A DNA stretch of 64,000 nt, taken from the NCBI RefSeq assembly GCF_024055665.1, contig NZ_JAMXMC010000003.1, positions 98,814 through 162,813 on the forward strand, in the 5' to 3' direction. The notes under the pieces were generated by a model that saw nothing but the letters and a program-made list of their open reading frames with translations, was not told the DNA's origin and searched no databases. Below are positions 54,083-58,665 of the stretch, in pieces. How positions within the stretch are numbered: position 1 is the stretch's first letter; every line of letters starts with the position of its first letter. The stretch comes from Ideonella oryzae (lineage in GTDB: Bacteria; Pseudomonadota; Gammaproteobacteria; Burkholderiales; Burkholderiaceae_C). A program made the position numbers and the translations under genes.

Positions 54083-54134
54083 CGCCGCCACCCCACCAAA
54101 ACCGTGCCCCTTCCCGCTGTGCATGCAATCCGAA

Positions 54135-54155
54135 GTATGTAGAATTCATGCATAC
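54135..54155 (+). promoter_or_regulatory. Dyad in the vapBC promoter region
   Basis: GTATG (54135-54139) and CATAC (54151-54155) are 11 bases apart, flanking TAGAAT, which could be a -10 box. AbrB-fold antitoxins bind such dyads and repress their own operon. No good -35 box is seen. Confidence 0.45.
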
Positions 54156-54185
54156 CGAATCTTTCGGATCACCCCGGAGACGCCG

Positions 54186-54431
54186 ATGGAAGCCACAGTT
54201 GCCGAGCGTGGGCAGATCACCCTGCCCAAGGCCGTGCGCGATGCCCTGGGCCTGACCAAGGGCACCGTGCTCAAGGTGGAGCTCGATGGTGCGCGCATCG
54301 TGCTGCGCAAGGATGTCTCCGACGCCATCTCCAAGGCCCGCGGTCGCTTCAAGCTTGATGGCTTTGCCGACACCGACGACGCGATGCGCAGCATCCGTGG
54401 CCGGGCGCCCGGCGACCCCCTGGACGTCTGA
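54186..54431 (+). CDS. vapB: AbrB/VapB-type antitoxin
   Basis: An 81-residue protein with an N-terminal AbrB/MazE swapped-hairpin DNA-binding domain (VAERGQITLPKAVRDALGLTKGTVLKVEL; key motif GQITLPKAVR) and an acidic C-terminus that would cover the toxin. ATG 54186 chosen. It is six bases ahead of the toxin gene. Confidence 0.88.
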   Translation: MEATVAERGQITLPKAVRDALGLTKGTVLKVELDGARIVLRKDVSDAISKARGRFKLDGFADTDDAMRSIRGRAPGDPLDV

Positions 54432-54437
54432 TCCCCC

Positions 54438-54842
54438 ATGATCGCCATCGACTCCTCCGTGCTGATCGACCTGCTGGCCGATGGCCCCGCGGCCGATGCG
54501 GCCGAGGCCTGCTTGCGCCAGTCGCTCAGCGTCGGGCCGGTGGTGGTCTGCGACGTGGCCCTGACCGAGGTCTGCACGGCCCTGCGCAACGGCACCGAGG
54601 TGCTGGAGGTGCTGGAGGAGATGGGCGTGCGCTTCTCGGCCACCGAAGCCAAATCGGCCATCCGGGCTGGCGAGATGCAGCGGCGTTACCGCCAGCGGGG
54701 CGGCCGCCGGGAGCGCACCCTGCCCGACTTTCTCGTGGGCGCGCACGCGCTGCTGCAGTGCGACGCCCTGATCACCCGCGACGACACCTTCTTTCGCGAT
54801 TACTTCAAGGGGCTCAAGGTCATCGTGCCGCACGCGGCCTGA
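54438..54842 (+). CDS. vapC: PIN-domain (VapC-type) toxin
   Basis: A 134-residue PIN-domain RNase. Acidic active-site residues are in IAIDSSVLIDLL (D5), LTEVCTALRN (E), RTLPDFLVGAHA (D) and ITRDDTFF (D), so the metal site looks intact. Probably cuts tRNA or other RNA when freed from the antitoxin. It ends 36 bases before acnB with no terminator between. Confidence 0.9.
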   Translation: MIAIDSSVLIDLLADGPAADAAEACLRQSLSVGPVVVCDVALTEVCTALRNGTEVLEVLEEMGVRFSATEAKSAIRAGEMQRRYRQRGGRRERTLPDFLVGAHALLQCDALITRDDTFFRDYFKGLKVIVPHAA

Positions 54843-54878: not shown

Positions 54879-57464
54879 ATGCTGCAAGCCTATCGCCAAC
54901 ATGCCGCCGAACGCGCCGCGCTCGGCATCCCGCCGCTGGCCCTCGACGCCAAGCAAGTGGCCGAGCTGATCGAGCTGATCAAGAACCCGCCGGCCGGCGA
55001 AGAGGCCTTCCTGCTGGACCTGCTGACCCACCGCGTGCCCCCGGGCGTGGACGATGCCGCCAAGGTCAAGGCCAGCTTCCTGGCCGCCGTCGCTCACGGT
55101 GAGGTGAAGGTCGCCCTGATCTCCAAGGCCAAAGCCACCGAGCTGCTGGGCACCATGGTGGGTGGCTACAACGTGCATCCGCTGATCGAACTGCTGGACG
55201 ACGCCGAAGTGGCAGACGTCGCTGCCGCCGGTCTGAAGAAGACCCTGCTGATGTTCGACTACTTCAACGACGTGGCAGCCAAGGCCAAGGCCGGCAACGC
55301 CAAGGCCCAGGAAGTGCTGAAGAGCTGGGCCGATGCCGAGTGGTTCACCAGCCGCCCCGAAGTCGAGAAGAAGATCACCATCACCGTCTTCAAGGTGCCC
55401 GGCGAGACGAACACCGACGACCTGTCGCCCGCCCCGGACGCCTGGAGCCGCCCGGACATCCCGCTGCACTACCTGGCGATGCTGAAGAACACCCGTCCCG
55501 ACGCGGCCTTCAAGCCCGAGGAAGACGGCAAGCGCGGCCCGATGCAGTTCATCGAGGACCTGAAGAAGAAGGGCCACCTGGTGGCCTATGTGGGCGACGT
55601 GGTGGGCACTGGCTCCAGCCGCAAGTCCGCCACGAACTCGGTGATCTGGGCCACCGGCCAGGACATCCCCTTCGTGCCCAACAAGCGCTTTGGTGGCGTC
55701 ACCCTGGGCGGCAAGATCGCCCCGATCTTCTTCAACACCCAGGAAGACTCCGGCTCGCTGCCGATCGAGGTCGACGTTTCCAAGCTGGAAATGGGCGATG
55801 TGGTCGATGTGCTGCCCTATGACGGCAAGATCGCGAAGAACGGCGAGACCGTCGCCGAGTTCAAGCTCAAGAGCGATGTGCTGTTCGACGAAGTGCGCGC
55901 CGGCGGCCGGATCAACCTGATCATCGGTCGCTCGCTGACCGCCAAGGCCCGCGAGGCCCTGGGCCTGCCCGCCTCCACCACCTTCCGCCTGCCCGTGGCC
56001 CCCAAGGACAGCGGCAAGGGCTTCACGTTGGCCCAGAAGATGGTCGGCCGCGCCTGCGGCCTGCCGGAAGGCCTGGGCATCCGTCCGGGCACCTACTGCG
56101 AGCCCAAGATGACCACCGTCGGCAGCCAGGACACCACCGGCCCGATGACCCGCGACGAGCTGAAGGACCTGGCCTGCCTGGGCTTCTCGGCCGACTTGGT
56201 GATGCAGTCCTTCTGCCACACCGCGGCCTATCCGAAGCCGGTGGACGCCAAGATGCACCGCGAGCTGCCGCCCTTCATCAGCAGCCGCGGCGGCGTGGCC
56301 CTGCGCCCGGGCGACGGCGTGATCCACAGCTGGCTCAACCGCCTGCTGCTGCCCGATACCGTCGGCACCGGCGGCGACAGCCACACCCGCTTCCCGATCG
56401 GCATCTCCTTCCCGGCGGGCTCCGGCCTGGTGGCCTTCGGCGCCGCCACCGGCGTGATGCCGCTGGACATGCCCGAATCGGTGCTGGTGCGCTTCAAGGG
56501 CAGCATGCAGCCGGGCGTCACTCTGCGTGACCTGGTGCATGCCATCCCGCTGTACGCCATCAAGGCCGGTCTGCTGACCGTGGCCAAGGCCGGCAAGAAA
56601 AACATCTTCTCGGGCCGCATCCTGGAAATCGAAGGTCTGCCCGACCTGAAGGTGGAACAGGCGTTCGAGCTGTCCGACGCCTCGGCCGAGCGCTCGGCCG
56701 CCGGCTGCACGATCAAGCTCAACCCCGAGCCAATCAAGGAGTACCTGCGCTCCAACATCGTGCTGATGAAGAACATGATCGCCGACGGCTACCAGGACGC
56801 GAAGACCCTGCAGCGCCGCATCGAGAAGGTGGAAGCCTGGCTGGCCAAGCCCGATCTGCTGGAAGCCGACAAGGACGCCGAGTACGCCGCCGTGATCGAG
56901 ATCGATCTGGCCGACATCAAGGAGCCCATCGTCTGCTGCCCGAACGACCCGGACGACGCCAAGACCCTGTCCGAGGTGGCCGGCACCAAGATCGACGAGG
57001 CCTTCATCGGCTCGTGCATGACCAACATCGGCCACTTCCGCGCGGCGGCCACCGTGCTGGGCGGCGCCCGTGACATCCCGGTCAAGCTGTGGGTGGCCCC
57101 GCCGACCAAGATGGACGCCTCCGAGCTGATGAAGGAAGGCCAGTACGCCGCCTTCGGCGCGGCCGGTGCCCGCACCGAGATGCCCGGCTGCTCGCTGTGC
57201 ATGGGCAACCAGGCCCAGGTGCGCGAAGGCGCCACGGTGATCTCCACCTCGACCCGCAACTTCCCCAACCGCCTGGGCAAGAACACCAACGTGTTCCTGG
57301 GCTCGGCCGAGCTGGCGGCCGTGGCCTCCAAGCTGGGCAAGCTGCCGACCAAGGAAGAGTACTTGGCCGCCACCGGTGTCATCACCGCCAAGGCCGACCA
57401 GATCTACAAGTACATGAACTTCGACCAGATCGAGGAATACGCCGAAGTCGCCAAGAGCGTCTGA
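54879..57464 (+). CDS. acnB: Aconitate hydratase B
   Basis: Interconverts citrate and isocitrate; the B type is the main TCA aconitase. The 861-residue protein has the HEAT-like N-terminal domain, swivel motif [17 protein letters not shown], and [4Fe-4S] cysteines in [10 protein letters not shown] and GCSLCMGNQ plus an earlier Cys in [12 protein letters not shown] 54879 follows TGGAGAG. It is 36 bases behind the toxin gene. Confidence 0.97.
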
Positions 57465-57541: not shown

Positions 57542-57838
57542 CTAGAAGCACTCACGCTCGAGCCGATCCAGGTCGTCCAGGGCCGGGGTATCGGCGTGAC
57601 GTTCGAACAGCTCCCGGATCGGATTGACCAGGCTGTGAAGCAGCAGCAGGTCGTCGCGCTGGGCGCCCTGCGTGCTGGCCCGCTGGCGATCGATGTAATC
57701 GATCAGCCGAGCGGCCTGCGCATCGCTGCCGGTCCGGCGACGGTCCAGGTGGGCCAGCACCCGGGCCACGTTGCCGTCGTAATCGATGCCCTTGAAGCTG
57801 ATGTAGCGGTCGGCGACCGCAGGGTGGGCGGTGGACAT
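57542..57838 (-). CDS. cowN: CowN, protects nitrogenase from carbon monoxide
   Basis: A 98-residue acidic cytoplasmic protein. The block DRYISFKGIDYDGNVARVLAHL at residues 10-31 (key SFKGID.DGN), RDDLLLLHSLVNPIRELFE and the C-terminal LERECF match CowN, which in Rhodospirillum rubrum and Azotobacter sustains N2 fixation when CO is present. Start 57838 has a strong GAAGGAGG site. It lies 72 bases after the CooA-like gene in the same direction, probably co-transcribed with it. The usual Cys in GIDC is Tyr here. Confidence 0.88.
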   Translation of the reverse strand: MSTAHPAVADRYISFKGIDYDGNVARVLAHLDRRRTGSDAQAARLIDYIDRQRASTQGAQRDDLLLLHSLVNPIRELFERHADTPALDDLDRLERECF

Positions 57839-57910
57839 GGGAGCAAGCCTCCTTCTTGAGGGTCAGGACAGAAGGCTGGCAGCGTAGGCGGCCGGAGCGG
57901 TCGGTGTCCG

Positions 57911-58588
57911 TCAACTGGACGACGCTTTGGCCGCGGTGTGACATTCCAGCAGGGCCAGATCGGGAATGTTCAGCCACTGCCGCCCCTCCCGCCGGACCAA
58001 GCCCTGGCGCTCCAGGGCAGAGAAGGCGGCCGACACGCTCTGCCGACTGGTTCCCAGCGCCCCGGCGAGGTCGGTCAGGGTGAAGGGCAAAGGGCAGCGC
58101 CATGCCCCCGAGGCCTGGTGCAGCCCCTGGCGCCGCACCAGCGCCAGCAGCAGACGGGCCAGCCGCGCATGGACGTCCCGGAACACCAGATCCTCCAGGC
58201 GTTCCACCGTGTGGGCCAGCAGACGTCCCAGCACCCGCATGATGGAGATCACCGCCGGCGTGCCACCGGCCTCCAGGGCCTGGGCGAAATGCCGCGTGGG
58301 CATGGCCAGCAGCTCCACCGCCCCTGCCGCGGTCAACGTGGCACCGGTGTGGGTGGAGAAGACGTCACCGGGCTCCAGGAACATCAGGGTCAGTTCACGC
58401 CGTCCGTCGCTGGTGTGCACCCGCACCCTCCCCCGACGCAGGACCAGCACCTCGTCGCGGGTCGTGCCAGGGCCGCACAAGGCCTCTCCACGGCGGCACC
58501 GTCGGGACATGAAACCAGCACGCAGCGCCATGCCTTCCGGACTCTCCAGAAAGCGCAGGAAGTCGTGGGGGCTGGCGGCCGGCTGCAT
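57911..58588 (-). CDS. CooA-like CRP/FNR heme CO sensor
   Basis: A 225-residue CRP/FNR protein. The effector domain aligns with CooA across LESPEGMALRAGF, RRGRVRVHT, ELTLMFLEPGDVFSTHTG and RLEDLVFRDVHARLA; the C-terminal HTH is LAGALGTSRQSVSAAFSAL. H80 matches CooA His77, the ferrous heme ligand, but the Cys75 position is Ser78. The N-terminus is MQP rather than MP, so N-terminal heme ligation may differ. ATG 58588 follows AGGAGA. It likely activates cowN in response to CO. Confidence 0.82.
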   Translation of the reverse strand: MQPAASPHDFLRFLESPEGMALRAGFMSRRCRRGEALCGPGTTRDEVLVLRRGRVRVHTSDGRRELTLMFLEPGDVFSTHTGATLTAAGAVELLAMPTRHFAQALEAGGTPAVISIMRVLGRLLAHTVERLEDLVFRDVHARLARLLLALVRRQGLHQASGAWRCPLPFTLTDLAGALGTSRQSVSAAFSALERQGLVRREGRQWLNIPDLALLECHTAAKASSS

Positions 58589-58665
58589 CGGGGCATCTCC
58601 TGTCGGGGTTCGCACCCGCATGCGAAGCGCGTGCCAGCACACGCGCGCCCCTCACGGCACGGGCT

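Follow-up and report, generated by a model that had tools for sequence, protein, structure and literature searches.

The closest described counterparts of the locus analysed here are gene clusters in which cooA, encoding a regulator that senses carbon monoxide (CO), lies beside cowN. In Rubrivivax gelatinosus CBS the two genes adjoin, CooA is 36% identical to that of Rhodospirillum rubrum, and the authors propose that cooA may regulate cowN; two related strains without genes for anaerobic carbon monoxide dehydrogenase (CODH) still have CooA and CowN (PMC4257681). Gluconacetobacter diazotrophicus possesses an algH-cooA-cowN cluster with a CooA box 60 bp upstream of cowN and a cooA gene that is likely RpoN-dependent; diazotrophy induces its cowN, CO raises expression further, and CO in the presence of ammonium has no inducing effect (PMC8047169). 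For Rhodobacter capsulatus, papers citing Hoffmann 2014 place cowN under NifA and CooA, the kind of two-input control that we propose below. Here we analyse a stretch of 64,000 nucleotides (nt) from Ideonella oryzae (the window; positions 98814-162813 of its contig, in a genome of 4.70 Mb in 31 contigs), in which cooA and cowN likewise stand side by side. The pair is a further case of the published arrangement, and the pairing itself is not unusual. R. gelatinosus CBS is another species, however, and the missing cysteine, the altered N-terminus, the box and the promoters reported here were not found discussed in the extracts of its description (PMC4257681).

From homology and gene content we show that cowN is immediately preceded by a gene for a CooA-family regulator with the conserved heme histidine, and that the genome also carries nif genes and nifA. 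We consider it likely that the two genes form a CO-defence unit of nitrogen fixation, in which sigma54 would make CooA under nitrogen shortage and CO-bound CooA would switch on cowN. Both genes lie on the minus strand, cooA 5' of cowN, with a gap of 72 bp. CowN passes both family cut-offs, with 89.7 bits against 48 for NCBIfam NF033689 and 93.4 bits against 27 for Pfam PF20543, and the description in the initial annotation, a CowN-type protein just downstream of a CooA-like CRP/FNR protein, holds. The regulator possesses a cNMP-type domain and a Crp helix-turn-helix. Its top match by phmmer among PDB entries is R. rubrum CooA (1ft9; 97.8 bits, 6.2e-27), followed by CooA-1 of Carboxydothermus hydrogenoformans (2fmy; 85.5 bits), and the first non-CooA protein reaches 60.7 bits. 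By profile and by fold, the C. hydrogenoformans protein is the closest solved relative; a gap of about 140 bits separates 2fmy from the first full-length non-CooA in the profile scores, and the fold comparison also puts the regulator with CooA. In a tree with 14 other CRP/FNR proteins, including three paralogues from the same genome, it falls into the CooA clade with support of 100/98. Fold, heme histidine, helix-turn-helix and palindromic box are shared with R. rubrum CooA (1ft9) and C. hydrogenoformans CooA-1 (2fmy, 2hkx). R. rubrum CooA controls the coo operons for CODH and hydrogenase, whereas the neighbour in the window is cowN and no CODH gene of the host exceeds its cut-off.

The host genome carries nifH (453 bits against a cut-off of 394), nifD, nifK, nifE, nifN (593 against 327; open reading frame (ORF) L018:165-1604) and nifA (669 against 529), all over their NCBIfam cut-offs, and the only four Oxidored_nitro genes found in it are nifD, nifK, nifE and nifN. 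On this gene content, the earlier proposal that the host fixes nitrogen is sustained. The genome check for nif and cox/coo genes suggested along with it returned the nif genes, but no coxL of aerobic CODH over the curated cut-off (best 129 bits against 991) and no match to cooS of anaerobic CODH at E<=0.001. CO oxidation by the host is therefore not indicated, and a role of the pair in CO oxidation was rejected.

For comparison, 240 cowN relatives were taken from a scan of named genomes and the best 80, ranked by likeness to the window CowN, were kept; the set is not a census. A cooA match is present in 31 of these 80 loci and is full-length in 30, always upstream of cowN and on the same strand. 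The distance from cooA to the cowN match is 16-152 bp in 29 loci and 586 bp in the remaining one (L076). The locus with a partial cooA match at its edge (L035) was left out of the cooA-linked counts and placed among the 50 others. Start codons of the relatives were chosen by hand (the nearest ATG, otherwise GTG), and counts over 31 rows refer to the 30 cooA-linked loci plus the window. In the loci without full-length cooA, 31 of the 50 upstream ORFs could be annotated, with LytTR in six and PAS_4 in three; the LytTR DNA-binding ORFs would be consistent with RcoM-type CO regulators. The distribution of cowN is patchy. It occurs in 7 of 399 sampled genomes of the family, including the host and one partial copy with stops, is absent from the five other genomes of the genus listed in that sample, and occurs in 6 of 300 genomes sampled across the order. 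One locus (L017, genome G414) gives a partial cowN match covering only profile positions 55-94, with two internal stops; G506, under the same genus label, has an intact copy. In a wider survey for CooA, 29 of 398 genomes in the phylum sample gave matches at E<=1e-22; by score, G000 (280.3 bits) and G699 (170.8 bits) are the only two set apart as CooA, and the match in G705 (116.5 bits) groups with other CRP/FNR rows in the tree. At E<=1e-30, the class of G699 yielded 1 of 48 genomes and that of G882 1 of 385, namely G705. These wider surveys added one useful CooA row, L113.

At the heme site, F77-S78-T79-H80 of the window protein aligns with F-C-M-H of R. rubrum CooA, whose cysteine and histidine are residues 75 and 77. 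The initial annotation correctly described the histidine as retained and Cys75 as replaced by serine, its H80 being the window numbering of R. rubrum His77. Thr79 and His80 are invariant in all 31 rows, and the Cys75 position is occupied by serine (16), threonine (14) or alanine (1), never by cysteine; L113, with no cowN in its fetched locus, has valine. R. rubrum and C. hydrogenoformans CooA both carry the cysteine where the window protein has Ser78, and the Carboxydothermus-type CooA invoked earlier as lacking it was wrongly described (aligned gdiFCtHT). In C. hydrogenoformans CooA, this cysteine is not known to be a heme ligand. According to Youn's comparison of CooA homologues of 2004, the cysteine is reportedly not universal, and we therefore do not claim its loss as new. 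The MQP start proposed earlier for the window protein is supported by the AGGAG 8 nt upstream, and it does not match Pro2 of R. rubrum CooA (His77 and Pro2: PMC12937710). Across the 30 loci, residue 2 is most often His (10), followed by Ser (5), Asn (4), Asp, Thr and Gly (2 each) and Gln, Lys, Arg, Val and Pro (1 each), so that an MP start is seen only once. Under the usual rule for methionine aminopeptidase, Met1 would be kept in 19 of the 30 loci and in the window. The Cys-less site and the altered N-terminus are thus common to the cowN-linked CooAs examined, not peculiar to the window protein. Cys75 as ferric ligand and Pro2 as distal ligand were treated as traits of R. rubrum CooA, not as marks that define the family.

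Because the cysteine is absent, it is fair to infer that ferric ligation differs from the classical model: His80 would probably be the protein ligand in both redox states, with no Cys-His swap of the R. rubrum kind. With His80 holding the iron in both states, the distal ligand would, less firmly, most likely be the alpha-amine of the retained Met1. This proposal draws on Derxia gummosa, two Azohydromonas and one Aquabacterium (4 of 31 rows), in which the kept Met1 stands 21 residues before a nearly invariant Phe, as Pro2 does in mature R. rubrum CooA. The arm is variable, however (13-40 residues before Phe over the 31 rows, 25 in the window), and the fit in four rows is a selected case. A serious competitor, to which we give somewhat less than an even chance, is that ligation is effectively unaltered, with histidine and N-terminal amine in both redox states as in C. 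hydrogenoformans and a cysteine loss without consequence for CO sensing. The profile and fold rankings would fit this alternative, although a phmmer search with only the window protein puts R. rubrum CooA first; the M[HNQK]P or MHAH starts, in contrast, have no characterised counterpart that we found in the extracts of the CooA literature. It is rather unlikely that the distal ligand is a side chain, either of a His near the N-terminus (His8 of the window protein; 10 of 30 loci have His2) or of Met117 in the C-helix. Met occupies position 117 in 25 of 31 rows, aligned with R. rubrum Ile113 on a helix of the distal heme pocket, but the other six rows have Ile, Val or Leu there, and no His stands near the start of the Azohydromonas, Aquabacterium and L034 proteins.

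The promoter of cowN appears to be built into the end of cooA. All 30 cooA-linked loci have a CooA-type 16-base palindrome of at least 14 of 16 points in the 180 nt that precede the cowN match. In 24 of them and in the window, hence in 25 of 31 rows, a TA...T hexamer follows 21 or 22 nt after the box, compared with at most three in 500 resamplings. Box and hexamer together (20-23 nt) occur in 24 of the 30 cooA-linked loci and in 1 of the 50 others. The box starts before the cooA stop codon is complete in 14 of 30 loci, and in eight that codon supplies the first three bases of the -10 hexamer. Placing the hexamer at -12 to -7 centres the box at -41.5 or -42.5, which is the class-II position of CRP; cowN transcription is predicted to start near 57874. 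CO-responsive control of cowN, as claimed initially, is supported by this conserved box with its spaced -10 and by expression in a relative (PMC8047169), and for the window protein it is predicted. It seems quite improbable to us that read-through from the sigma54 promoter accounts for most cowN expression and that the intergenic box is a relic: the window box, with 14 of 16 points, scores near the bottom of the set and the 72-bp gap on one strand fits read-through, but the box core and the -10 spacing of 22 nt are kept in both the window and Ideonella sp. B508-1. A sigma54 promoter directly before cowN was rejected, since the best intergenic scores, at most 18 (this value from a 2.7-kb stretch of L035), in no locus exceeded those of resampled sequence at p 0.05. 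For the nif region, the idea of CooA boxes was dropped as well; three GTCG-N6-YGAC matches in 59 kb are about what we estimate from base composition. One locus without a detected cooA (L099) has a full-score CooA box and a spaced -10 upstream of cowN.

The sigma54 -24/-12 consensus was used to score the region upstream of cooA. In the window, TGGCACGCGCTTCGCA deviates from it at only one scored position. Sites scoring at least 18 within 100 nt of the cooA start are present in 18 of 30 loci (expected 1.4; maximum 6 in 300 resamplings), and a distance of 12-14 nt separates the -12 element's GC from the start codon in 18 of 30 (L026, L027, L030, L033, L040, L041, L045, L054, L058, L066, L068, L070, L080, L083, L085, L093, L094 and L104). 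This count includes L045 and L068, which were shifted to the second in-frame ATG after the spacing had been seen (otherwise 16 of 30), and L027, which starts with GTG. Because sigma54 transcription begins about 12 nt after the GC, the spacing suggests a nearly leaderless cooA mRNA in these 18 relatives. In all of them the 20 nt before cooA are free of a Shine-Dalgarno-like motif (GGAG, AGGA, GAGG or GGGG), and 16 have one before a candidate cowN start, a lenient test that accepted any of several candidate starts; in the remaining 12 loci, six have the motif before cooA. The window and Ideonella B508-1 are exceptions, with a spacing of 33 nt and an AGGAG. In L054, L070 and L104, a TGTCG-N6-CGACA-like palindrome was observed about 58-66 nt before the cooA sigma54 element, with near-matches in L066, L068, L080, L083, L093 and L094. 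A perfect CooA box also fits the NifA site TGT-N10-ACA, so that one element could serve either protein. In the extracts of published accounts of cooA and cowN we found neither the -10 spacing, nor its overlap with the cooA stop codon, nor the possible leaderless cooA mRNA of relatives; a literature search on leaderless mRNA and cooA listed a single paper, on Deinococcus.

According to the model that we favour, RNA polymerase with sigma54 and an enhancer-binding activator, most likely NifA, would transcribe cooA under nitrogen limitation, and read-through into cowN would provide a basal level of CowN. CO would then bind the ferrous CooA heme opposite His80 and release the N-terminal arm, whereupon CooA could bind DNA. 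CO-CooA, bound to the box at the cooA stop codon (box centre at about -42), is expected to activate a class-II, sigma70-type cowN promoter, and CowN would keep nitrogenase working in CO. A cell would need both nitrogen limitation and CO, because CooA would not be made otherwise. By analogy, this two-step control fits the published behaviour of cowN in G. diazotrophicus, whose locus shares with the window the cooA-cowN cluster, a CooA box before cowN and a likely RpoN dependence of cooA. It differs in the NifA site 59 bp upstream of cowN, whereas we found no TGT-N10-ACA ahead of the window's cooA promoter, and in the algH gene adjoining cooA, which is not in the ORF list at the window locus.

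Several points weigh against this picture. The window box is degenerate, both outer bases deviating, and boxes of at least 14 points also occur in 8 of the 50 cowN loci without full-length cooA. The resampled controls ignore relatedness, the contrast between loci with and without cooA being the better control; the sigma54 and -10 consensus sequences and the methionine-aminopeptidase rule are general knowledge. Even with one mismatch allowed, the roughly 400 nt from the cooA start contain no NifA site upstream of the sigma54 element; a single near match sits on the other side of that element, within the leader. As regards the regulator, 1ft9 is missing from the 50 listed entries of the fold comparison, and the cowN-linked CooAs do not form one clade in the tree, in which branches are long, support is middling, and the R. 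rubrum and C. hydrogenoformans proteins and L113 are interspersed among them. That the protein is a Crp/Dnr-type regulator merely resembling CooA and sensing another signal (nitric oxide, redox state or a cyclic nucleotide) is nevertheless scarcely credible: it also matches general CRP/FNR models, every one below its NCBIfam curated cut-off, and it is without the two R. rubrum hallmarks Cys75 and Pro2, but the tree speaks against this identity, as the initial annotation had anticipated, and the profile gap, the invariant T79-H80 and the CooA-type box at the neighbouring cowN stand against it as well.

Table 1. Features of the cooA-cowN locus, in window coordinates.
Feature	Position	Strand	Basis or remark
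cooA, predicted CO-sensing CRP/FNR-type activator, 225 amino acids, N-terminus MQP	57911..58588	-	phmmer, profile, tree, fold
cowN, N2-fixation-sustaining protein, 98 amino acids	57542..57838	-	NCBIfam NF033689, Pfam PF20543
CGTCGTCCAGTTGACG, predicted CooA box, core GTCG-N6-YGAC (window GTCG-N6-TGAC)	57909..57924	-	overlaps cooA stop codon
TACGCT, predicted cowN -10 hexamer, 22 nt after CooA box	57881..57886	-	TA...T at 21-22 nt in relatives
AAGGAGG, likely ribosome-binding site of cowN	57848..57854	-	sequence inspection
TGGCACGCGCTTCGCA, sigma54-type (-24/-12) promoter of cooA-cowN	58621..58636	-	score 20 of 21.5
AGGAG, likely ribosome-binding site of cooA, 8 nt upstream of MQP start	58597..58601	-	sequence inspection
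His80 codon (R. rubrum His77, heme ligand)	58349..58351	-	invariant in 31/31 aligned CooA rows
Ser78 codon (R. rubrum Cys75)	58355..58357	-	alignment of 31 rows

Among the relatives, the closest named genome found is that of Ideonella sp. B508-1, with CowN and CooA each 97% identical to those of the window. A plus-strand gene at 54879-57464, which from its sequence we take to be acnB, converges on the end of cowN. Further along, at 54123-54842 (plus strand), a MazE-like antitoxin gene is followed by a PIN-domain gene, a VapBC-type pair.

The locus offers a concrete model of how nitrogenase may be defended against CO, with a sensor that would be made only under nitrogen shortage and a target promoter that would be written into the end of the sensor gene. 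Within the cowN-linked set, Cys75 is absent from all 31 rows and Pro2 from 29 of 30 loci and the window; since both hallmarks of CooA heme chemistry are missing, the textbook ligand switch may not hold there. Tentatively, and with more doubt than confidence, we suggest that the cowN-linked CooAs of diazotrophs have a ligand set of their own, without a Cys-His redox switch and with the amine (or a nearby His) of an unprocessed M[HNQK]P or MHAH start as distal ligand, produced in most lineages from a leaderless sigma54 mRNA that would start at most about two bases from the start codon. Without the thiolate, their heme might stay ferrous at higher potentials, and micro-aerobic nitrogen fixers could sense CO under conditions that would oxidise R. 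rubrum CooA and leave it blind. If sigma54 transcription does start at the start codon in the relatives, their cooA genes would form a natural set for the leaderless translation of a regulated gene, and the cysteine loss and altered N-terminus of the cowN-linked CooAs merit spectroscopic attention.
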